Source of the DNA: Beijerinckiaceae bacterium
Lineage (GTDB): Bacteria > Pseudomonadota > Alphaproteobacteria > Rhizobiales > Beijerinckiaceae
Length of the DNA stretch: 64,000 nt
Direction of reading: 5' to 3'
Assembly: GCA_027533425.1 (NCBI GenBank)
Contig: JAPZUD010000006.1
Coordinates: forward strand, 1-64,000
A model generated the notes under the pieces. The model worked only from the letters and a program-made list of their open reading frames with translations. It did no database searches and was not told where the DNA came from. Every line of letters begins with the position of its first letter. Position 1 is the first letter of the stretch. Shown here one piece after another: positions 50,387-63,010 of the stretch. Made by a program: the position numbers and the translations under genes.

Positions 50387-51688
50387 TTACCGGAAGATCA
50401 GCGAAAGCCGGGCCTGCATATCCTGCAGGGCGGCTTCGGCCGTCTTCGACCCGGCCATGAAGGCCGACAGGTTGGTCCGGACAATATCCGACACTTCGGA
50501 ATAGCGTGCGCTCTGCGGCCGCAGGCGCGCCACGGCCAGCACGGCCCCCATCTGGCCGAGGAAGGGCCGCGCCGCCACGATGGTAGCATCCTGATAGGGC
50601 CCGGTCTGGGCGGGCAGGTCACCGAGTTCGGCCTGCAGCCGGGCCGCCTCGGGCGAAGCGAGATAGCGCAGGAAAGCCAGGGCCTCGACCTTCCGCCCTG
50701 AAAAGGCCGTCACGCCCACCATCCAGCCGCCGGCGCAACTGGAGGCGCGATCCTCCGTCTCGCCGGGAACCGGCACCAGCCGCACCTTGCCGGCCACGAC
50801 GCTGTCAATGTCGGTCTGCATCCTCTGCCACGCATAGCTCCAGCCATGTCCGAAGACGAGCGACCCGGCCTGCATCGCAAGGCGGATGCGCTCCGGGTGG
50901 CCTTCGCCCGGCGGGACTGGAAGGAGCTTAGCATCCTTGAGCGCCTGGAGGCCCTGCAGGGCGCGGCGGGCAGGATCGGTCAGCAGGGCCGGCTTGCCTT
51001 CGGTGACGAGATCATGCCCGGTGCCCCAGAGCGCCATCGCCGCCGTGCAGACACTGCTTTCGACCGGCGCCGAGGAGAGATCGATCGCTCGCAGGGTTGG
51101 CTGGTTCTCGGCGGCAAGAATCCGGGTTGCCGCCTCGCGAAGCGCGGCCTGTGTCGTCGGCACCGCAAGGCCGTGCTTCTCGAGGAGATCACCACGCACG
51201 AGCATGGCCTGGGCATCGGCGGAATAGGGCACGGCCATCAGCCGGCCGCCGGCAAGTGCTGCTTGCCGGTAGGCCGGGAACAGCCGGGCGAGCAAGGCCT
51301 CGCGCTCCGGACCGAACAGGCCGTCCAGCGGCTCAAGCCATTGCCCCAATGCCCATTGCGGGATCCGCAGAACATCGACCATCACCAGATCGACACCGGC
51401 ATCGCGGGCACCGAGCAGCGCATTGAGCGCCTGCTGCTGGCTTTCCAGCGTAGCGCCGCCGGTCTCGATCTCGATCGTCAGACCCGGTCGCGCCTGGCTA
51501 TAGGCATTCGCCAGTGCGCGCAGGACATCGATCTTCGGGAAATTGGCCGCGAAAACCTTGAGATGGGTCTGGGCCAGGGCTTGTCCCGTGAAGGCCAGCA
51601 AGGCAAGAAAAAGGCCGGCCAGGACACCGGCAAGCCGGGCTGTCCCCGACCCCCGCCATGCCGATGCTTCCGTTTCGTCCTTCCGCAT
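50387..51688 (-). CDS. Extracellular solute-binding protein (ABC type, sugar-like)
   Basis: The 433-residue protein has a signal peptide (RLAGVLAGLFLALLAFTGQALA, about 18-40) and the bilobed family 1 binding-protein fold, with DVLRALANAYSQARPGLTIEIE, LVMVDVLRIPQWA and GHGWSYAWQRMQTDID. Such proteins deliver sugars or related solutes to ABC permeases, but none is encoded nearby. ATG 51688 follows GGGAGG; the track start at 52642 is inside the kinase. It is divergent from the PfkB kinase. Confidence 0.85.
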   Translation of the reverse strand: MRKDETEASAWRGSGTARLAGVLAGLFLALLAFTGQALAQTHLKVFAANFPKIDVLRALANAYSQARPGLTIEIETGGATLESQQQALNALLGARDAGVDLVMVDVLRIPQWALGQWLEPLDGLFGPEREALLARLFPAYRQAALAGGRLMAVPYSADAQAMLVRGDLLEKHGLAVPTTQAALREAATRILAAENQPTLRAIDLSSAPVESSVCTAAMALWGTGHDLVTEGKPALLTDPARRALQGLQALKDAKLLPVPPGEGHPERIRLAMQAGSLVFGHGWSYAWQRMQTDIDSVVAGKVRLVPVPGETEDRASSCAGGWMVGVTAFSGRKVEALAFLRYLASPEAARLQAELGDLPAQTGPYQDATIVAARPFLGQMGAVLAVARLRPQSARYSEVSDIVRTNLSAFMAGSKTAEAALQDMQARLSLIFR

Positions 51689-51781
51689 GCGACAACCTCC
51701 CGGACGGGTGATGGCAGGATTCCCCGCCCTGTTCAATGCCGGGCCGGATACCGGACACCCGCATGCAAGGAAGGACAGGCC

Positions 51782-52699
51782 ATGCGCAGCCTGATGACCA
51801 TCGGCATCGTGGTCCTTGATGAAGTGCTGACAATCCCGCTGGCGCTCAAGCCGGGCGAGAAGCATCGCGCGATCCGGTCCGACAGCGTGATGGGCGGCAA
51901 TGCCGCGAACGCCGCTCTGGCGATCGCCCGGCTGGGTGGAAAAGCCTGTCTGGTCGCGCGGATCGGCGACGATGCCAGCGGCCGGATCGTGCGGCAGAAA
52001 CTGGCCGAATTCGGCATCGACGATTCGCTCTCCCCGCCGATGGCCGGGATCGTCACGTCGCGGTCGAGCATCATCATCGAACCGGGCGGTGACCGGACGA
52101 TCGTCAACTATCTCGATCCCCGCATGCCGGACCGCCCGGACTGGCTTCCCGCTTGCCTGCCAGCCGGAACGGCGGCGGTCCTGGGTGATACCCGCTGGGA
52201 AACGGGGGCCGGCCACCTGTTCGACCTTGCCCGCCAGGCCGGGATCCCGGCCGTGTTCGACGGCGACCGCGCTCCGCAGGATCGCAGCCTGCTGGCGCGG
52301 GCAAGCCACGTGATCTTTTCCGCCATAGGGTTGCGTGAGGCCACCGGCATGCCGGATCTCCACCAGGGCCTGCTGGCCATCAGGCGCGAAAGCGAAAGCT
52401 TCCTTGCGGTCACGGATGGTGGCGATGGCGTGCTCGCGCTGCTCCCGGACGGCCTCTGGCACGTTCCCTCCCTGGATATCCGTGCCGTCGATACGCTCGG
52501 TGCCGGCGATGTCTGGCATGGCGCCTTCGCCTGGGCGCTGACCGAGCGGCTTGACCTGCTGGATGCCATCCAATGGGCGAATGTCACCGCCGCCCTGAAA
52601 TGCCTGAAGCCCGGGGGGAGTTCCGGTGCGCCGGAGCGGCACGAGGTCGAGGCTGCCCTGCCCGGCCTGCCGGCACCGAGGCGCCTCGTTGCTATCTGA
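51782..52699 (+). CDS. PfkB-family carbohydrate kinase
   Basis: The 305-residue ribokinase-fold protein has the substrate-side GGNAANAALAIARLGG (about 38-53) and the catalytic anion-hole signature DTLGAGDVWHGAFAWAL (about 237-253). It phosphorylates a sugar or sugar acid. In sulfosugar pathways PfkB enzymes act on sulfofructose or keto-deoxy-sulfogluconate, and the adjacent sulfolactate operon makes this worth testing, but no aldolase is present here. Its 3' end overlaps the convergent gntR gene by 8 bases. Confidence 0.88.
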   Translation: MRSLMTIGIVVLDEVLTIPLALKPGEKHRAIRSDSVMGGNAANAALAIARLGGKACLVARIGDDASGRIVRQKLAEFGIDDSLSPPMAGIVTSRSSIIIEPGGDRTIVNYLDPRMPDRPDWLPACLPAGTAAVLGDTRWETGAGHLFDLARQAGIPAVFDGDRAPQDRSLLARASHVIFSAIGLREATGMPDLHQGLLAIRRESESFLAVTDGGDGVLALLPDGLWHVPSLDIRAVDTLGAGDVWHGAFAWALTERLDLLDAIQWANVTAALKCLKPGGSSGAPERHEVEAALPGLPAPRRLVAI

Positions 52700-53441
52700 G
52701 GCCGCTCACATAGTGGCAATGGCGCGTGTCGCAGAGCGAGTAACGCCATTCCACCGGCTTGCCATCGAGATCCAGCGCCACCCGGTCGATGGCGAGGATC
52801 GGTGTTCCCTCCGGAATGCCGAGCAGCACGGCATCCTCTGCCGGCGCCGCCATGGCGCGGAGCGATTCATCGCCACCGGCAATGGTGATGCCGTAATCCG
52901 ACGCGAAATGATCGTACAGATTGTTGGGTATGTCCGCCTGGTTGACGAGGCCGGGGAACCGCTCCAGCGGCAGCGCGAGATATTCCGAAATGGTCGGCCG
53001 GCCATTAAGCGAGCGGACCCGCGCAATGCGGATGACGCTGTCACCAGGACGCAGCGCCAGCCGCGCCACTTCCTCAGGGCTCGCCGTCGCGGTCTCGACA
53101 CGGCGGAGATGGCTTTCGGGAAAGACGGGAATGCCGGTCTCGGGCACGATCTTGAAGAACTGGAACAGGATCCGGCTCTCGTCATGCCGGGCGACAAACG
53201 TGCCGCGCCCCTGCCGCCGCACGAGCAGGCGATCGGCGGTCATCTCGTCCAGGGCCTTGCGAACGGTGCCCTGGCTGACGCCGAGCTCTGCCGCGATCTG
53301 CATCTCGGAGGGCAGGATTTCACCCGGCTGCCAGAAACGCTCGGCAATACGCCGCACAAGCAGTGACTTGACCTGCCGGTAGAGCGGCAGGAACCCCGGT
53401 GTGCCGCGGGCTTCATCCTGAGAACTTGTCTTCTCGTTCAT
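52692..53441 (-). CDS. GntR family (HutC/UTRA) transcriptional regulator
   Basis: The 249-residue protein has an N-terminal winged helix (about 15-85, ILPSEMQIAAELGVSQGTVR then KALDEMTADRLLVRRQGRGTFV) and a C-terminal UTRA ligand domain (about 95-245). It is divergent from the suyA-like operon, so it most likely represses that operon and is released by a sulfonate or sugar acid. I use ATG 53441; a GTG at 53450 is possible. The intergenic region holds a good HutC-type palindrome. Confidence 0.9.
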   Translation of the reverse strand: MNEKTSSQDEARGTPGFLPLYRQVKSLLVRRIAERFWQPGEILPSEMQIAAELGVSQGTVRKALDEMTADRLLVRRQGRGTFVARHDESRILFQFFKIVPETGIPVFPESHLRRVETATASPEEVARLALRPGDSVIRIARVRSLNGRPTISEYLALPLERFPGLVNQADIPNNLYDHFASDYGITIAGGDESLRAMAAPAEDAVLLGIPEGTPILAIDRVALDLDGKPVEWRYSLCDTRHCHYVSGLR

Positions 53442-53443
53442 GA

Positions 53444-53479
53444 TTGACACTCTAACAAGTCTTATGTCTTATACAAGAC
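53444..53479 (+). promoter_or_regulatory. Promoter with overlapping GntR operator upstream of the sulfolactate operon
   Basis: TTGACA (53444-53449) is a -35 candidate with TCTTAT or TTATAC 17-19 bases further as the -10. The -10 overlaps the palindrome GTCTTATACAAGAC (53466-53479), which contains CTTATACAAG, close to the HutC-type consensus, and a direct copy of GTCTTAT lies just before it. Repressor binding would block the plus-strand promoter and might autoregulate gntR. Confidence 0.6.
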
Positions 53480-53570
53480 CTGAGCGTTCGAAGCCCTGAT
53501 CCGTCACGGTGCCGGTACGCCACCATCCCCCCAAGCGCCCGAGGGCGTATCGCGAGGAAGGCATAGAGCC

Positions 53571-53858
53571 ATGACCATTCCCCATCTTCTTGTCCATGAA
53601 CACAAGGACACCGTGGGCGTTGTCGTTGTCGAAAACCTCAAGGCCGGCACCGAGATGCTCGCCGTGGTGACCGCCGACAATTCCAGCTTCTCGGTGGCCT
53701 CGCGGGCCGACATCCCGATCGGCCACAAGGTCGCGCTGAAGGATATCCGCAAGGGCGATACCATCTGGAAATACGGACAGGACATCGGCAAGGCCGTGGC
53801 GGATATCGCCAAGGGCGAACATGTCCACGTGCATAACGTCAAGACCAAGCGCTGGTGA
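53571..53858 (+). CDS. suyA: UxaA-family lyase small subunit, probable (R)-sulfolactate sulfo-lyase alpha subunit
   Basis: The 95-residue SAF-domain protein ([42 protein letters not shown]) is the small subunit of a UxaA-type two-component lyase. The same family covers altronate/galactarate dehydratase and sulfolactate sulfo-lyase SuyA. The sulfolactate reading is favoured because the large subunit, an exporter of the YeiH type and a pair of dehydrogenases matching the SlcC/ComC racemising system follow in one operon. Substrate assignment is inference. Confidence 0.75.
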
Positions 53859-53871
53859 CAGGAGAACCGAC

Positions 53872-55164
53872 ATGGCAAGCGCCCCGATCGTTGCGAATTT
53901 CTCCCTGAACCGGAACAAGCTCAAGCCCGTCAAGGGCCGCTGGATCGAAGCCCCGTCCTTCAAGGCGCCGATGCGCCGGAAGCGCCGGGCCGATGCCGCG
54001 ATGGACCATTTCTTCGGCTGGCGCCGCGAGAATGGCCGCGTCGGCGTCCGGAACCACGTCGTCCTGCTGCCGCTGGATGACCTCTCGAACGCGGCCTGCG
54101 AGGCCGTGGCGAACAATATCAAGGGCACGATGGCCCTGCCGCACGCCTATGGCCGCCTGCAATTCGGCGCGGATCTCGACCTGCATTTCCGGACGCTGAT
54201 CGGCACCGGCTCGAACCCCAACGTCGCGGCCGTCATCGTCATCGGCATCGAGGACAGCTGGACCAAGGTGGTGGTCGAGGGCATCGCGAAGACCGGCAAG
54301 CCGGTTGTGGGCTTCGGCATCGAGGGCCATGGCGATATCGCGGTTATCGCGAAGGCCTCCTACGTCGCCAAGGAATTCGTGCAATGGGCCAGCGAGCTCC
54401 AGCGCGAGAAATGCGACATTTCGGAATTGTGGGTCTCGACCAAATGCGGCGAGAGCGACACCACGACCGGGCTCTCCTCCTGCCCGACCGTCGGCAACAT
54501 GTATGACAAGCTGATCCCCAAGGGCATCTACGGCGTTTTCGGCGAGACGTCCGAGATCACCGGCGCCGAGCATCTCTGCAAGGCCCGCGCCGCGACGCCG
54601 GAGGTCGGCGAACGCTGGTACAAGATGTGGAAAGCCTATCAGGACGATGTCATCGAGGCCCACAAGACCTCGGACCTCTCCGACAGCCAGCCGACCAAGG
54701 GCAACATTGCCGGCGGTCTGACGACCATCGAGGAAAAGGCCCTCGGCAATCTCGAGAAGATCGGCCGCGAGTGCAAATATATCGACATTCTCGACCCGGC
54801 CGAAGCGCCGGCGAAGGGGCCTGGCCTCTATTTCATGGACACGTCCTCCGCCGCGGCGGAATGCGTGACCCTGATGGCGGCGGGCGGCTATGTCGTGCAC
54901 ACCTTCCCGACCGGTCAGGGCAACGTGATCGGCAACCCGATCGTTCCGGTGATCAAGATCACCGGCAACCCGAAGACCATGCGCACCATGCCGGAACATA
55001 TCGACGTGGATGTCTCCGGCATCCTCCGGCGGGATCTCACGATCCCCGAAGCCGGCGACGCGCTGATCGCTTCGATCATCCGCACCGCGAATGGCCGCCT
55101 GACCGCTGCCGAAGCGCTCGGCCATCGGGAATTCGTCATGACCAAGCTCTATCGCTCGGCCTGA
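53872..55164 (+). CDS. suyB: UxaA-family lyase large subunit, probable (R)-sulfolactate sulfo-lyase beta subunit
   Basis: The 430-residue protein has the UxaA core: [20 protein letters not shown] (about 50-70), [40 protein letters not shown] and [20 protein letters not shown]. Cysteines in TKCGES and SSCPT are likely FeS or metal ligands. The first 45 residues are a basic extension. Predicted reaction: (R)-3-sulfolactate to pyruvate and sulfite. ATG 53872 follows CAGGAGA; 13 bases after suyA. Altronate/galactarate-type activity is the alternative. Confidence 0.78.
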
Positions 55165-55167
55165 CGC

Positions 55168-56223
55168 ATGCCTGACGCAACGGTATCGCCGGGCGCCCCG
55201 CGCCCGGCGGCGTGGTTGCCCGGCCTCGCCCTTGCGCTGGCCGTGGCACTGGCCGCCATGGCCCTCGAACCCTGGCTGCGCCGGACTTTCGGCGCCAGCC
55301 TTCCGGGGATGGTGCTGGCACTGGTCATCGGCATCCTGCTGCACCCGATCGCGAAGCGGCCGGTCTTCAAGGCCGGTTTCGACCTCGCCGTGAAACGCCT
55401 GCTCCGCTACGCCATTGCCCTGCTCGGCCTGCGCATTGCCCTGTCCGACATTGCCGGCCTCGGCTGGCCGGCCGCCCTGCTCGCCATCGCGGCCATGGCC
55501 TGCACGGTCGCCGGCGCAATGATGCTGGCGCGCCTGCTCGGGCTGGCACGCGGCTACGGCGCGCTGGCTGGCGCGGCCTGCGCGGTCTGCGGCGCCTCGG
55601 CCACGCTCGCCACCGCCACGGTGGTCCCGGATTACAGGCAGAAAGCCGCCGATATCGCCTTCACCGTGGTCATGGCGAATGCCCTCTCCACCGTTGTCAT
55701 GATCGCCTATCCTCCGATCGCGGTGGCCCTCGGCCTCGACATCCGCGAGACTGGCCTTTTCCTTGGCCTAACCATCCACGACATGGCGCAGGTCGTCGGC
55801 GCCGGCTACGCCATGTCCGAGCCGATCGGCAACAATGCCGTGATCATCAAGCTCTTCCGCGTCTTCCTGCTCCTTCCGGTCGTGCTCGGCATCGGATGGG
55901 TGCTGGCCCGGCAGGAAGGCGGTGACGGCGCGGCGCAGGCCAAGGTTCCCCTGCCCGGCTTCGCGCTGGTCTTCCTCATTCTGGTCGTCGTCAATTCGGT
56001 CCTTCCGGGCACGGCGCTCGCGGCACAGTATGCAAGCGTCAAGGGCGTGCTATCCTCGATTTCCGGCTGGCTGATGATGATCGCGATCGCCGCACTCGGC
56101 CTCGGCACCTCTGCCGGCGCCGTCATGGCCACGGGCTGGCGCCACCTCACCGTTTTCGTCGGCGCCACCTTGATCATCCTGGCGCTGGCCCTGGCCGGCA
56201 TTTTCGCGATGAGGATCCTGTGA
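55168..56223 (+). CDS. YeiH/UPF0324 family putative sulfate/sulfite exporter
   Basis: The 351-residue membrane protein has about ten helices and UPF0324 motifs: FGASLPGMVLALVIGILLHP, RYAIALLGLRIALSDIAGLG, GAACAVCGASATLATATVVP and HDMAQVVGAGYAMSEPIGNN. Family members are annotated as putative sulfate exporters. After C-S cleavage, sulfite must leave the cytosol, so its place right after suyB (3 bases) fits export of that product. It overlaps the next gene by GTGA. Confidence 0.88.
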   Translation: MPDATVSPGAPRPAAWLPGLALALAVALAAMALEPWLRRTFGASLPGMVLALVIGILLHPIAKRPVFKAGFDLAVKRLLRYAIALLGLRIALSDIAGLGWPAALLAIAAMACTVAGAMMLARLLGLARGYGALAGAACAVCGASATLATATVVPDYRQKAADIAFTVVMANALSTVVMIAYPPIAVALGLDIRETGLFLGLTIHDMAQVVGAGYAMSEPIGNNAVIIKLFRVFLLLPVVLGIGWVLARQEGGDGAAQAKVPLPGFALVFLILVVVNSVLPGTALAAQYASVKGVLSSISGWLMMIAIAALGLGTSAGAVMATGWRHLTVFVGATLIILALALAGIFAMRIL

Positions 56224-57158
56224 GCACGATCATTGTCACCGAATTTATGGATGAGGCCGCTGTGGCGCGCCTCGCCGCCCGCCACGACACGCTCTACGAC
56301 CCTGCGCTTGTCGATGATCCGGCCCGCCTAGCCGCCCTGCTGCCGGCAGCGCGCGCCCTGATCGTCCGCAACCGCACGCAGGTCCGCCCGGCCTTGCTGG
56401 CGGCCGGCCCGCGTCTCGAGGCCATCGGCCGGCTCGGCGTCGGGCTCGACAATATCGACGTGGCCGCCTGCAAGGACCGTGGCATCGCGGTTTATCCCGC
56501 CACCGGCGCGAATGATCTCGCGGTGGCCGAATGGGTCATCGCCTCGACGCTGATCCTGCTGCGTGGCGCCTATGGCGCGACGGGGGACGTGATCGCCGGC
56601 ACCTGGCCGCGCCAGCGGCTGATGGGCCGCGAGGCCTCCGGCCGTGTCATGGGGCTGGTCGGGTTCGGCGCCATTGCCCGCGAGGTCGCGCAGCGCGCCC
56701 GGGCGCTCGGCATGGAGGTCATCGCCTATGATCCCTTCCTGTCCGATGCCGATCCCTGCTGGTCCATGGCGCGCCGGCACGGCCTCGAGCCACTCCTGCG
56801 CGAGGCGGATGTCGTCTCGCTCCATGTCCCGCTGACGGACGAGACCCGGAACCTCATCGATGACCTCCGCCTGCGCCGCATGCGACCGGATGCGATCCTG
56901 CTCAATGCGGCGCGTGGCGGCGTCGTCGACGAGCCGGCCCTGGCTGCCGCCCTGCGCGAAGGGCGGCTGGGCGGCGCAGCGCTCGATGTCTTCGACGAGG
57001 AACCGCTCACGGCGGCGCGCGGTACGGTTTTTACCGGTTGCCCCAACCTCATCCTGACGCCGCATATTGCCGGCGTGACGCAGGAATCGAACCGGCGCGT
57101 CTCCGATCTCATCGCCACGCGCATCCTCGACCATCTCGGGAACGGGAAAGCTGGCTGA
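56220..57158 (+). CDS. slcC: D-2-hydroxyacid dehydrogenase, probable (S)-sulfolactate dehydrogenase
   Basis: The 312-residue NAD-binding enzyme begins with a GTG overlapping the exporter stop. It has the Rossmann motif GLVGFGAIAREVAQRARALG (about 142-161) and the catalytic triad Arg in LLNAARGGVVDEPAL, Glu in DVFDEEPL and His in LTPHIAGVTQES. It would oxidise (S)-sulfolactate to sulfopyruvate, as SlcC does in Chromohalobacter. Phosphoglycerate- or glyoxylate-type reductase activity is the alternative if the operon has another substrate. Confidence 0.75.
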   Translation: MSTIIVTEFMDEAAVARLAARHDTLYDPALVDDPARLAALLPAARALIVRNRTQVRPALLAAGPRLEAIGRLGVGLDNIDVAACKDRGIAVYPATGANDLAVAEWVIASTLILLRGAYGATGDVIAGTWPRQRLMGREASGRVMGLVGFGAIAREVAQRARALGMEVIAYDPFLSDADPCWSMARRHGLEPLLREADVVSLHVPLTDETRNLIDDLRLRRMRPDAILLNAARGGVVDEPALAAALREGRLGGAALDVFDEEPLTAARGTVFTGCPNLILTPHIAGVTQESNRRVSDLIATRILDHLGNGKAG

Positions 57159-57196: not shown

Positions 57197-58195
57197 ATGT
57201 CCGAGCGCATCCTCACCCTTGAGCAAGCCGAGGCCCTCGCCGCTGCGGCCTTCATCCGCTGCAGCACGCGGCCCGAAACAGCGAACATCGTCGCGCGGGC
57301 CCTCGTAGCCGCCGAGGCCGACGGACTGAAAGGCCATGGCCTGTCCCGCGTGCCGAGCTATGCCGCGCAGGCCCGAAAGGGGAAGATCCGCGGCGATGCG
57401 GAGCCCCGCCTCGAAATGGTCACGCCGGCCCTGGGCCGGATCGATGCCGGCTTCGGCTTTGCCTATCCCGCTTTGGCTTTGGCCGAGGCGATGCTCGCCG
57501 AACATGCCCCGATGATGGGCCTTGCCGCCGCCGCTATCCGGCGCTCGCATCATTGCGGCGTGGCCGGCGCGCCGGTCGAACGGTTGGCCGAGAAGGGCCT
57601 CGTCGCGATGCTCTTCGCCAACACCCCTGCCGCCATGGCGCCCTGGGGCGGCAGCCGCGCGACCTTCGGCACGAACCCGCTCGCCTTTGCCTGCCCGTTG
57701 CCGGGCGAACCGCCGATCGTGGTCGATCTCTCGCTGTCCAAGGTCGCGCGCGGCAACATTCTTGCGGCGAAACAGAAGGGCCAGCCCATTCCGGAGGGCT
57801 GGGCCCTGGATGCCGAGGGCCGGCCGACCACCGATGCCGAGGCCGCGCTCAAGGGCACGATGCTGCCGCTCGGCGACGCCAAGGGCACCGCACTGGCGCT
57901 GATGATCGAATTGCTCGCGGCCGGCCTCACCGGCGCCCGTTTCGCCGCCGATGCGACCTCGTTTCTTGATGACAAGGGCGATCCGCCGGCCACCGGCCAG
58001 TTGCTCCTCGCCTTCGATCCGGCTTTGTTCGGTGGCGAGGGCACGCTCGCCCATTTCGCCCGGCTCGCCGAACAGATCCGCAGCCAGCCCGGCGCCCGCC
58101 TGCCCGGATCGCGCCGGCTCGCCCTCCGCGCCAAGGCGCAAAAAAGCGGATTGGCGGTGGCGGAAGCTCTCGTCTCGGAGATCGAGGCGCTGTAA
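57197..58195 (+). CDS. comC: LDH2-type malate/lactate dehydrogenase, probable (R)-sulfolactate dehydrogenase
   Basis: The 332-residue protein of the malate/L-lactate (LDH2/MDG2) family has GLSRVPSYAAQARKGKIRG, the catalytic His in IRRSHHCGVAGAPVERLA and GGSRATFGTNPLAFACPLPG. ComC reduces sulfopyruvate to (R)-sulfolactate; with SlcC it turns the S form into the R form needed by SuyAB. The start after GGAAGGAA matches family N-termini. 38 bases after slcC. Other 2-keto-acid substrates cannot be excluded. Confidence 0.75.
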   Translation: MSERILTLEQAEALAAAAFIRCSTRPETANIVARALVAAEADGLKGHGLSRVPSYAAQARKGKIRGDAEPRLEMVTPALGRIDAGFGFAYPALALAEAMLAEHAPMMGLAAAAIRRSHHCGVAGAPVERLAEKGLVAMLFANTPAAMAPWGGSRATFGTNPLAFACPLPGEPPIVVDLSLSKVARGNILAAKQKGQPIPEGWALDAEGRPTTDAEAALKGTMLPLGDAKGTALALMIELLAAGLTGARFAADATSFLDDKGDPPATGQLLLAFDPALFGGEGTLAHFARLAEQIRSQPGARLPGSRRLALRAKAQKSGLAVAEALVSEIEAL

Positions 58196-58249: not shown

Positions 58250-59701
58250 ATGCTGACCAAACTCGAATTCAAGAAGCAGGCCATCCTCGTGGATGGCCAG
58301 TGGATCGCGGCCGATTCCGGTCGGACGATCGCCGTCACCGATCCCGCCACCGGCGAGACGATCGGCACCATCCCGAATGCCGGCCAGGCGGAAACGCGCC
58401 GCGCCATCGAGGCTGCCCATGCCGCCTTCCCGGCCTGGCGGGCCAGGACCGCCGCCGAACGCGCGGCCCTGCTGCTCAAGCTGGCTGAGCTCATCCGCCA
58501 GAACAGTGAGGCTTTGGCTCATCTGCTCACGCAGGAACAGGGCAAGCCGCTGGCCGAGGCGCGCGGCGAGATCGGCAGCTCGGCCGCCTATGTGCAATGG
58601 TTCGCCGAGGAGGCCCGCCGCGCCTATGGCGAGGTCGTGCCCTCGCCCTGGGCCGACCGGCGCATTCTCGTCACGCGGGAGCCGGTCGGCGTGGTCGGCG
58701 CGATCACGCCCTGGAACTTCCCGTCCTCGATGATCGGCCGGAAGCTCGGCGCCGCCCTCGCCGCCGGCTGCACCATCGTGATCAAGCCGGCGGATCTCAC
58801 CCCCTACTCGGGCCTCGCCTGGGGCGTGCTCTGCGCCGAAGCCGGCATCCCGGCGGGGGTGGTGAACATCGTCACCGGCGACGCCCCCGCAATCGGCGCC
58901 GAACTGACATCCAACCCGCTCGTCCGCAAGATCACCTTCACCGGGTCAACGCCGGTCGGCAAGCTCCTCGCCCAGCAGAGCGCCGGCACGATGAAGCGCA
59001 TCTCGATGGAGCTTGGCGGCAATGCGCCCTTCATCGTCTTTGACGATGCCGATCTCGAGCGCGCGGTGCAGGGCGCGCTTCAGGCCAAGTACCGCAATGC
59101 CGGCCAGACCTGCGTCTGTACCAATCGCTTCTATGTGCAGGCCGGCATCCATGATGCCTTCGCGCGCCGCTTCGCCGAGGAAGTGGCGAAAATGCGCGTC
59201 GGCAGCGGGTTCGAGACCGGCGTGCAGATCGGCCCGCTGATTGATAGCCGCGCCCTGGCCAAGGTGAAGGCCCATCTGGATGATATCCTTGCCCGCGGCG
59301 GCGAGGTCGTCACCGGCGGCAAGGGCCATGCGCTTGGCGGGACCTTCTTCGAACCGACCGTCGTCAAGAACGTGCCGCAGGGCGCCCGCGTCGCCACCGA
59401 GGAAACCTTCGGCCCGCTCGCCCCGATCTTCCGTTTCGAGACGGAAGCCGAGGTAATCGGCCTCGCCAATGCCACGGAATACGGCCTCGCTGCCTATTTC
59501 TACACGCGCGATCTCGCCCGCGCCTTCCGCGTTTCGGAAGCGCTGAAATACGGCATGGTCGGCGTGAACGAGGGGCTGATCACCACCGAGGTCGCGCCTT
59601 TCGGCGGCGTGAAGGAAAGCGGCGTCGGCCGCGAGGGCTCGCGCCACGGCCTCGAGGATTATCTCGACATGAAATATGTCTGCCTCGGCGGGATCGCCTG
59701 A
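58250..59701 (+). CDS. NAD(P)-dependent aldehyde dehydrogenase, candidate sulfolactaldehyde dehydrogenase
   Basis: The 483-residue GabD-like enzyme has the catalytic Glu in MELGGNAPFIVFDDADL, the nucleophilic Cys in NAGQTCVCTNRFYV and GSTPVGKLLAQQS. It is of the succinate-semialdehyde dehydrogenase group, the group used as sulfolactaldehyde dehydrogenase in sulfo-Entner-Doudoroff pathways. In this operon it could feed sulfolactate into SuyAB from sulfolactaldehyde. Context is the only support for that substrate. It lies 54 bases after comC. Confidence 0.85.
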   Translation: MLTKLEFKKQAILVDGQWIAADSGRTIAVTDPATGETIGTIPNAGQAETRRAIEAAHAAFPAWRARTAAERAALLLKLAELIRQNSEALAHLLTQEQGKPLAEARGEIGSSAAYVQWFAEEARRAYGEVVPSPWADRRILVTREPVGVVGAITPWNFPSSMIGRKLGAALAAGCTIVIKPADLTPYSGLAWGVLCAEAGIPAGVVNIVTGDAPAIGAELTSNPLVRKITFTGSTPVGKLLAQQSAGTMKRISMELGGNAPFIVFDDADLERAVQGALQAKYRNAGQTCVCTNRFYVQAGIHDAFARRFAEEVAKMRVGSGFETGVQIGPLIDSRALAKVKAHLDDILARGGEVVTGGKGHALGGTFFEPTVVKNVPQGARVATEETFGPLAPIFRFETEAEVIGLANATEYGLAAYFYTRDLARAFRVSEALKYGMVGVNEGLITTEVAPFGGVKESGVGREGSRHGLEDYLDMKYVCLGGIA

Positions 59702-60360: not shown

Positions 60361-61359
60361 TCAATCGGCATAGACGCCGGCGCCATCGATGATCTTCTTC
60401 CATGCCGCGATCTCCGACACGAGATGCTTGCCAAGGAAGGCCGGGTCGGCCTGGGCATCCGTGGCCACGTCGGTCGAGAGCTGCGCGAGCCGTTGCAGGA
60501 TGACCGGATCCTTCAGGGCTTCCTTCAGCGCCTTGTTGAGCTGGCTGATCACCGCCGGCGGGGTGCCTTTCGGCGCATAGAGCCCGTGCCAGACCGTCGC
60601 ACGGAAGCCGGGCAGGCCCGAGGCCGCAAGCGTCGGCAGGTTGAGCCCCTTGACCGGTTCGGTCGAGGTCACGGCGTAGGCCTTGATGACATTGCCCTGG
60701 ATCTGCGGCAGCGCGGAAGTGATCTGGTCACAGAGAACGTCGACCTTTCCGGAGACAAGATCATTCATCGCCGGCCCGGTGCCGCGATAGGGGATCTGCG
60801 TCATCTTCACGCCGAGCTGGCCCATCAGCATCAGCCCGCACAGATGCGAGCCGGACCCGACGCCGGCATGGGCGTAGGAAACCTTCTCGCCATCCGCCTT
60901 CAGCTTGGCGAAGAGCTGCGGCAGCGAATCCGTGCCGAGATCCTTCCGGCTGACCAGCACAAACGCGCCATCCGTCATCATCCCGACCGGCGCGAAATCC
61001 GCGATCGGGTCATAGGGCAACTTGCGGTAGAGTGTCGCCGTCGTGGCGTGGCTGATATGCGAGACCAGCAGCGTGTGGCCATCCGGATCGGCCTTCGCGA
61101 CCCGGGCAATCCCGACCGTCGAACCGGCGCCTGCGACGTTCTCGACGATGATCTGGCCGCCGATTTTCTGGCTCATCGATGCGGCAAAAAGGCGCGCAAT
61201 CGTATCGCTGGGCCCGCCGGCCGCGAAGGGCACGACAAACGTGATCGGCTTGGTCGGAAAGGCCTGCGCCGCACCCTGGACCAGGAATCCGCAGAGAAGC
61301 ACCGATGTGATTCGCATCAGGCTGGTTCGAAGGCGTGAAAAAGCGGGTCGGTTCTGCAT
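60361..61359 (-). CDS. Tripartite tricarboxylate transporter (Bug-type) binding protein
   Basis: The 332-residue periplasmic protein has a signal peptide (about 14-33, LMRITSVLLCGFLVQGAAQA) and the Bug fold: PTKPITFVVPFAAGGPSDTI, GQIIVENVAGAGSTVGIARV and GLYAPKGTPPAVISQLNKAL. Perfect GGAGG precedes ATG 61359. Bug proteins bind carboxylates; the TTT system SlcHFG carries sulfolactate in Chromohalobacter. No TctA/TctB membrane genes are in the window, so either they are elsewhere or the protein is an orphan sensor. Confidence 0.9.
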   Translation of the reverse strand: MQNRPAFSRLRTSLMRITSVLLCGFLVQGAAQAFPTKPITFVVPFAAGGPSDTIARLFAASMSQKIGGQIIVENVAGAGSTVGIARVAKADPDGHTLLVSHISHATTATLYRKLPYDPIADFAPVGMMTDGAFVLVSRKDLGTDSLPQLFAKLKADGEKVSYAHAGVGSGSHLCGLMLMGQLGVKMTQIPYRGTGPAMNDLVSGKVDVLCDQITSALPQIQGNVIKAYAVTSTEPVKGLNLPTLAASGLPGFRATVWHGLYAPKGTPPAVISQLNKALKEALKDPVILQRLAQLSTDVATDAQADPAFLGKHLVSEIAAWKKIIDGAGVYAD

Positions 61360-61528
61360 CGTTTCCTCCGATATGGTCGACGGCCCGGTGCCTTTTCGGC
61401 GCTCTTCGGTTGGGCGGGTCCGTCCTGAGACTTGAAGTTTCGGCAAAGGCGATAAAGCATGCAAGAGTTTCGTGGTCCGGATCTCTCGGGATCTGAACCC
61501 TCCGTCGTCCATTCCGGTCCCGGGTCCC

Positions 61529-63010
61529 ATGCGTCGCAACCTTCGCTTCATCTTCCAGGGTTCGCTGGTCGAACTGAATGAGATCGACCCGAACCGCATG
61601 CTGCTGGAATGGCTGCGCGAGACCCGTCGCGCCACCGGCACCAAGGAAGGCTGCAACGAGGGCGATTGCGGGGCCTGCACCGTGATCCTCGCCCGCTGGC
61701 AGGGCGATGCCGTGCGCTACCAGCCGGTCAATGCCTGCATCCTGCTGCTCGGCATGGTCGATGGCTGCGAGGTCCTGACGGTCGAGGATCTCGCCAAGGG
61801 CGGTGCGCTGCATCCGGTCCAGCAGGCGATGGCGCGTCATCACGGCGCGCAATGCGGCTTCTGCACGCCTGGCATTGTGATGAGTCTTGTCGCCGCTTAT
61901 CTGGCCGAGCCGCGCCCGGTCTCGCGCGAGACCATCGCCGAATGCCTTGCCGGCAATCTCTGCCGCTGCACCGGCTATCGCCCGATCTTCGATGCCGCGG
62001 CGGAAGCGCTGGCCGATCCTGTCCCCGAAAATGCCGGCTTCGGCATTCCGGACAAGGCGGTGGCCCTCCGCGCACTCGCAGACGGACGAGACCTCATTCT
62101 CGGCCATGATGACCGGTTCTTCGCGGCACCGGCGCAACTCGATACCCTCGCGGAGATGGCGGCCAGCCATCCAGAGGCCACTCTGGTCAGCGGCGCGACC
62201 GATGTCGGTCTCTGGATCACCAAGAAGCTGCAGGACCTGCCGAAGATCATCGCCCTCAACCGCATCGAGGGCCTGAAGACCATTGCCGAGGACGAGACCA
62301 CGCTCTTCCTCGGTGCCGGGGTTACCCATGCCGGGGCCATGCCGGCGCTTGGCCGGATCGATCCCGATCTCGACACGCTGATGAAGCGCTTTGCCTCGCG
62401 GCAGGTGCGCGCCTCGGGCACGATCGGCGGGAACATCGCCAATGGCTCGCCGATCGGTGATCTCGCCCCGGCGCTGATCGCCCTCGGCTGTACCCTCCAT
62501 CTCCGATATGGCGCCGAGAGCCGTGACCTGCCGCTCGAGGATTTCTTCATCGCCTACGGGAAACAGGATCGCCGGCCCGGCGAATGGGTCAGCGGCCTCA
62601 CGATCACCAAGCCGGGGCATGGCAGCCATTTCCGTTGCTTCAAGATCTCGAAACGCACCGACGAGGATATCTCCACCGTGATGGGTGCCTTCCGGATCGA
62701 ACTGGATGCCGAGCGCCGCATCGTCGCGGCGCGCATCGCCTATGGCGGCATGGCCGCAACGCCGCGCCGCGCGGCGAAGGCAGAGGCGGCCCTGGTCGGC
62801 CTGCCGATCGCCGCCCCGGCCGAATGGGCCGCCGCCCTGCGGGCGCTCGCAGAGGATTTCCAGCCGATCAGCGACATGCGCGCCACAGCCGGCTACCGCT
62901 CCCGCGTGGCCCGCGCCCTGCTTGGCAAGGCCCTGACTGAAATCGGCGGGGCGCGCAGCCTGACGCGGATCCAGCCGCGCGGCTCCGTCGCGGAGGCGGC
63001 CCATGTCTGA
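61529..63010 (+). CDS. xdhA: Xanthine dehydrogenase small subunit (2Fe-2S and FAD)
   Basis: The 493-residue cytoplasmic subunit has two 2Fe-2S domains, CNEGDCGACTVILARW (about 39-54) and CGFCTPGIVMSL with CLAGNLCRCTGYRP (about 105-150), then an FAD domain (about 190-360, LVSGATDVGLWITKKLQDLP) and the CODH flavoprotein C-domain. It moves electrons from the Mo site of XdhB to NAD+. I start at ATG 61529 (MRRNLRFIFQGS). It is divergent from the Bug gene, with a 169-base shared promoter region. Confidence 0.94.
   Translation: MRRNLRFIFQGSLVELNEIDPNRMLLEWLRETRRATGTKEGCNEGDCGACTVILARWQGDAVRYQPVNACILLLGMVDGCEVLTVEDLAKGGALHPVQQAMARHHGAQCGFCTPGIVMSLVAAYLAEPRPVSRETIAECLAGNLCRCTGYRPIFDAAAEALADPVPENAGFGIPDKAVALRALADGRDLILGHDDRFFAAPAQLDTLAEMAASHPEATLVSGATDVGLWITKKLQDLPKIIALNRIEGLKTIAEDETTLFLGAGVTHAGAMPALGRIDPDLDTLMKRFASRQVRASGTIGGNIANGSPIGDLAPALIALGCTLHLRYGAESRDLPLEDFFIAYGKQDRRPGEWVSGLTITKPGHGSHFRCFKISKRTDEDISTVMGAFRIELDAERRIVAARIAYGGMAATPRRAAKAEAALVGLPIAAPAEWAAALRALAEDFQPISDMRATAGYRSRVARALLGKALTEIGGARSLTRIQPRGSVAEAAHV

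Follow-up and report, generated by a model that had tools for sequence, protein, structure and literature searches.

A predicted three-half-site operator of a GntR/UTRA regulator at the sulfolactate genes of a Beijerinckiaceae bacterium and its apparent second copy at sulfosugar genes

The region between the divergent genes gntR and suyA of a Beijerinckiaceae bacterium carries a 21-bp sequence (positions 53459–53479, plus strand), which comparison with related loci strongly indicates to be the operator of the adjacent GntR/UTRA regulator. It comprises three half-sites, GTCTTAT, GTCTTAT, and ACAAGAC, and its core, TCTTATNNAAGA, is found on one strand in all 47 divergent gntR–suyA intergenic regions, supporting the original prediction that the neighboring regulator controls the sulfolactate genes from this site. 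The site was analyzed in a window, i.e., the whole stretch of 64,000 nucleotides, against relatives drawn from 298 genomes of the family Beijerinckiaceae and from GTDB contigs; removal of loci with similar flanks left 32 non-redundant ones. A second copy of the operator lies on another contig of the same genome, here called C7, and judging from the gene neighborhoods the regulon looks like a joint sulfosugar–sulfolactate one, with two loci in this genome.

gntR (52692–53441, minus strand), which starts with ATG at 53441 or possibly farther upstream with GTG at 53450, codes for a protein of the HutC subfamily of the GntR family, containing both the GntR (PF00392, 1e-19) and the UTRA (PF07702, 1.2e-29) domain. 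The region 53430–53580 separates it from suyA (53571–53858, ATG at 53571), the first of a series of plus-strand genes. suyA codes for a SAF-domain subunit and suyB (53872–55164) for a subunit with two GD_AH domains (Pfam GD_AH_C, 4.7e-82). They are followed by genes for a putative exporter of the PF03601 (YeiH) family, SuyZ-like but below the NCBIfam cut-off (55168–56223), a SlcC-like 2-hydroxyacid dehydrogenase assigned by Pfam (56220–57158), a ComC-like Ldh_2 protein whose nearest NCBIfam, L-sulfolactate dehydrogenase, is matched below its cut-off (57197–58195), and an aldehyde dehydrogenase of the SSADH subfamily (Pfam Aldedh), a candidate sulfolactaldehyde dehydrogenase (58250–59701). With its SAF and GD_AH subunits and with slcC and comC nearby, SuyAB looks like a sulfolactate sulfo-lyase predicted to cleave (R)-sulfolactate; SlcC, ComC, and SuyAB form the set described for sulfolactate desulfonation (PMC12421959). 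A gene for a TctC-type tripartite tricarboxylate receptor (60361–61680) adjoins the operon, and several relatives (L130, L132, L136, L138) also have TctC-like genes close to gntR or suyA; the receptor is possibly a component of a sulfolactate importer. On the other side of the regulator gene, and convergent with it, lies a gene for a PfkB kinase (51782–52699, plus strand; best PDB match sulfofructose kinase 7ag6, 1.9e-50), and beyond it one for a solute-binding protein (50387–51690, minus strand, start approximate; best PDB match the sulfoquinovosyl-glycerol-binding protein SmoF, 7nbz, 1.2e-60). This segment (50387–52699) has no adjoining ABC permease genes, a complete SmoF-like importer being encoded on C7, and no operator was found between the SmoF-like gene and the PfkB gene of the window.

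The original prediction placed a palindrome and an additional direct GTCTTAT between gntR and the lyase genes, and both are present as described. The inner palindrome, GTCTTATACAAGAC (53466–53479, plus strand), matches in six of its seven pairs and contains the conserved core, a common form among relatives being the perfect palindrome GTCTTATATAAGAC. The extra left half-site (53459–53465, plus strand) together with the start of GTCTTATACAAGAC forms a perfect tandem 7-mer. Among the 32 non-redundant loci, the 12-bp core has a mean information content of 1.86 bits per column vs. 0.20 in its surroundings, and an additional TCTTAT 7 bp to the left of the core is exact in 15 and has at most two mismatches in 26, compared with none at the control position; a mirror half-site to the right of the core is absent from these loci. 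The same 21-bp layout, with a left half-site, a second left one 7 bp on, and a single right half-site, is common to the window and to the sulfosugar sites described below. The suyA sites have an intact inner palindrome; in several sulfosugar sites the better palindrome is the outer one, GTCTTRT-N7-AYAAGAC. The operator may offer two overlapping dimer registers, or accommodate a dimer and an extra subunit; GntR regulators are known to have additional half-sites at a distance of 7–12 nt from the centre (PMC4494728). Exact copies of GTCTTATACAAGAC also occur before the gene for a ribosome-hibernation factor in two genomes having gntR and lacking suyB (L124:3964 and L125:4013), and motif matches were noted in G004/G046 before a ribosome-hibernation gene and in G081 at a tRNA synthetase gene.

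The operator overlaps what is likely the promoter region of both gntR and suyA, the promoter positions being putative. On the plus strand, TTGACA (53444–53449) is a candidate –35 element of suyA, and 15 of the 32 loci have TTGAC at 16–23 nt ahead of the core, nine of them at the window position. The TTGACA upstream of the site is as stated in the original prediction. The overlap of the operator with a suyA –10 element is not established, since the possible –10, TATACA (53470–53475), is separated from TTGACA by 20 nt, outside the usual range, and no suyA promoter was called in a sigma-70 consensus scan. The window and eight other loci share this 20-nt spacing, six have 13–19 nt, and the remaining loci, about half of the 32, lack TTGAC. 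On the minus strand, a candidate gntR promoter comprises TTGTAT (53471–53476) and, 16 nt from it, TAGAGT (53449–53454), as –35 and –10, respectively, and ends beside the gntR start codon. Inspection by eye shows TTGTAT also in relatives arranged like the window, and TANNNT in most of these. This recurrent candidate promoter and the second genomic operator are both additions to the original reading. In a group of loci (L039, L043, L052, and similar ones) the gntR start codon nearly abuts the palindrome, suggesting a leaderless or near-leaderless gntR mRNA.

Probably, the regulator is an autoregulating UTRA-type repressor jointly controlling sulfosugar uptake and cleavage and sulfolactate desulfonation; the motif and its links to the regulator and to both gene sets come from comparison, with repression, effector, and promoters proposed on top of them. 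A GntR dimer would bind at the inner palindrome with assistance from the third half-site and, when bound, would extend over the start regions of the two divergent genes; repression of suyAB-suyZ-slcC-comC-aldh and of gntR itself is proposed to follow. A sulfonate metabolite of the pathway would then bind the UTRA domain and release GntR from the DNA. The same regulator would occupy the C7 site, between genes for a sulfoquinovose-type ABC importer and those for a sulfofructose-phosphate-type aldolase and an isomerase, and with one regulator at both sites sulfosugar uptake and cleavage would be switched on together with sulfolactate desulfonation. It is unlikely that the protein is instead an activator, or a dual regulator, which on binding remodels in the MerR-type fashion a suyA promoter whose spacer is too long to function unaided. 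The recurrence of the 20-nt spacing in nine of the 15 loci having TTGAC would fit such a mode of action, as would the failure of the sigma-70 scan to call an ordinary promoter, but other loci have spacings of 16, 18, or 19 nt, TTGAC is missing in about half, and the structurally studied UTRA relatives, NagR and DasR, are repressors (PMC4333415, PMC4918961).

The assignment of the motif to this regulator draws on co-occurrence within the family. The 14-mer RTCTTATRYAAGAY is present in 50 of 59 genomes having gntR and suyB and in 14 of the 239 others (Fisher p 1.7e-34), a p-value that, like the other one given here, overstates independence, because the genomes are related. That another transcription factor binds the motif is improbable to a still greater degree: 11 genomes, out of 233 without this gntR, do carry the motif, but it is found in 53 of the 65 with the gene, fits the SdhR code discussed below, and adjoins related GntR genes in other classes. 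Yet less credence can be given to the possibility that the site serves gntR autoregulation only, the sulfolactate genes being controlled elsewhere. Such a role would suit a site that abuts the gntR start codon and is spanned by the candidate gntR promoter. It is contradicted by seven loci (L134, L135, L136, L137, L138, L141, L142) in which gntR is not divergent from suyA, in one of them being some 132 kb away, and the motif is kept just upstream of suyA, which indicates that it serves the regulation of suyAB and not autoregulation alone. A chance palindrome can be dismissed: at least six of seven pairs were matched in 408 of 3000 (14%) dinucleotide shuffles of the 120-nt gntR–suyA intergenic region, so the palindrome by itself is insignificant, and a perfect tandem 7-mer arose in 13 of 3000 (0.4%), but the conservation across all 47 divergent loci establishes that the site is real.

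The regulator thus taken to bind the site has the domains of the HutC subfamily, and from its UTRA domain a resemblance of the site to the HutC-type consensus had been predicted. This resemblance was not borne out. In the HutC operator consensus, NyGTMTAKACNy, GT and AC are as a rule separated by 4 nt (PMC4494728), while the separation in the window site is 10 nt; a match to GTMTAKAC around a central TA was therefore rejected on geometry. The code of the site is that of SdhR, named in the same source (PMC4494728, citing Suvorova 2012) as an exception in the HutC subfamily, with the motif TCTTATGTCTTATATAAGACATAAGA. In the form given there, this motif includes the arrangement of the window with a difference of one base: both have the same core and the same extra TCTTAT half-site, and of the SdhR-type core TCTTATATAAGA the window carries the variant TCTTATACAAGA, with one mismatch, many relatives having TCTTATATAAGA itself. 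The window operator differs from the SdhR motif as quoted there in having a single additional half-site, located toward gntR, and the suy sites in general possess the left box and lack the right one.

A scan of 399 genomes of the phylum for the SdhR 26-mer, with up to three mismatches allowed, gave matches in 20 genomes and none with the control. Such 26-mers are located near genes for isocitrate dehydrogenase, malate dehydrogenase, and isocitrate lyase in other Pseudomonadota, often with a related GntR gene beside them (L145, L147, L151, L155, L158), and most of the sites inspected adjoin GntR proteins 39–43% identical to the window protein. The suy-linked and SdhR-like regulators have the recognition helix VSQGTVRKA in common; it differs in the UTRA paralogs encoded by the window genome. 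In a tree, most suy-linked and SdhR-like proteins group together, apart from these paralogs, with moderate support; some branches are long, among them those of the Paracoccus regulators, which for this reason are not safely placed. By its sequence the operator is a new example of the known SdhR-type operator class, the SdhR-like regulators themselves being candidates by site and homology. The targets are different: the window site serves sulfonate genes, in contrast to the malate dehydrogenase, isocitrate dehydrogenase, and isocitrate lyase genes near the SdhR-type sites. The two operators taken as real among the matches in the genome under study adjoin sulfonate genes, and the window regulator was not filed as SdhR.

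The second of these operators was reached by way of a relative. In the genome G084 (L130, L168) the operator occurs twice, between gntR and suyA and between the genes of a SmoF-like ABC importer and that of a PfkB kinase, the latter followed by genes for a DeoC/LacD aldolase and a fucose-isomerase-like protein. The best matches of this aldolase are a DUF2090 protein and tagatose-bisphosphate aldolases; sulfofructose-phosphate aldolase YihT was matched as well. A search of the window bacterium's own genome with the aldolase and the isomerase led to contig C7, where an operator near-match, C7:236770, was already on the list. On the strand of the aldolase gene its sequence is GTCTTATAACTTATATAAGAC, which likewise includes the extra half-site and has one core mismatch, and the site is situated between the aldolase gene and divergent genes for an ABC ATPase, a SmoF-like binding protein (7.9e-122), and two permeases. 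The whole segment, C7:234237–242517 (L172:6238–14518), codes for the isomerase-like protein, the DeoC/LacD aldolase, the SmoF-like ABC importer, and an aldose epimerase, with the operator in the divergent promoter, and from this gene content is a probable sulfoquinovose cluster.

The search of the genome for other copies of the motif, envisaged in the original prediction as a way to the regulon, thus yielded a second operator, although taken together the near-matches in this genome were not above control. They were accordingly rejected as a regulon, and the C7 site alone was kept because the independent gene searches landed beside it. In the family, 19 genomes have both the regulator and the aldolase, and 13 of them carry a site near the aldolase or the kinase, compared with none of six genomes lacking the regulator (p 0.005, among related genomes); the other six with both genes lack the second site. 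The five closest genomes share most of the sequence around the C7 site and therefore count for hardly more than one event, more distant support coming from G065, G019, G014, G109, G131, G002, G025, and G084.

Sulfolactate is the sulfonate analogue of malate and is for this reason the first candidate for the effector; we regard it as the most likely one, with sulfolactaldehyde or a sulfosugar phosphate also possible. R141, R143, and E153 of the UTRA domain keep the spacing of Arg133, Arg135, and Glu145 of the NagR effector site, from which their equivalence is deduced. R143 is invariant among the suy-linked proteins and mostly replaced by Leu in the SdhR-like ones, a pattern that would suit an anionic ligand. 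More tentatively, a regulator with the DNA code of the SdhR-type regulators of central metabolism may have been recruited to sense sulfolactate, the operator code being kept and the sensor domain and the regulon changed, so as to span the whole pathway between the import of the sulfosugar and the release of sulfite. Two overlapping dimer registers, the inner of 14 bp and the outer of 21 bp, would then result from the third half-site, several sulfosugar sites favoring the outer one.

Sulfoquinovose, a plant sulfosugar, is made by photosynthetic organisms at a very large scale, and sulfolactate is among the products of its degradation. The present analysis provides a precise, widely conserved predicted operator and a regulon of two loci, for whose testing a single purified protein would suffice, and possibly a case of a regulator group that changed its pathway and kept its DNA code. 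The nearest solved relatives of the regulator by sequence are DasR and NagR, repressors of the HutC subfamily with the same GntR and UTRA architecture, which differ from it in their operator and in having amino-sugar phosphates as effectors. The suyAB/slcC/comC sulfolactate desulfonation clusters of Paracoccus and Chromohalobacter comprise the same gene set as the window, and the Paracoccus relatives likewise have a divergent gene for a UTRA GntR with a related site. A regulator gene, suyR, has been named in the literature (PMC6018796), and our literature search for an operator of SuyR or SlcR returned the gene name only; in the available part of a recent review of sulfoquinovose catabolism (PMC12890257) the words regulator and repressor do not appear. 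The sulfoquinovose regulator of E. coli, CsqR/YihW (PMC10991401), is different from the GntR/UTRA regulator described here. By similarity, the sulfosugar genes resemble those of the sulfo-EMP and sulfo-EMP2 clusters in the SmoF-like binding protein, the sulfofructose-kinase-like PfkB, the DeoC/LacD aldolase, the fucose-isomerase-like enzyme, and the aldose epimerase. Unlike in the known sulfo-EMP clusters, however, the sulfosugar module here appears, from the sites found, to share its operator with the sulfolactate lyase.
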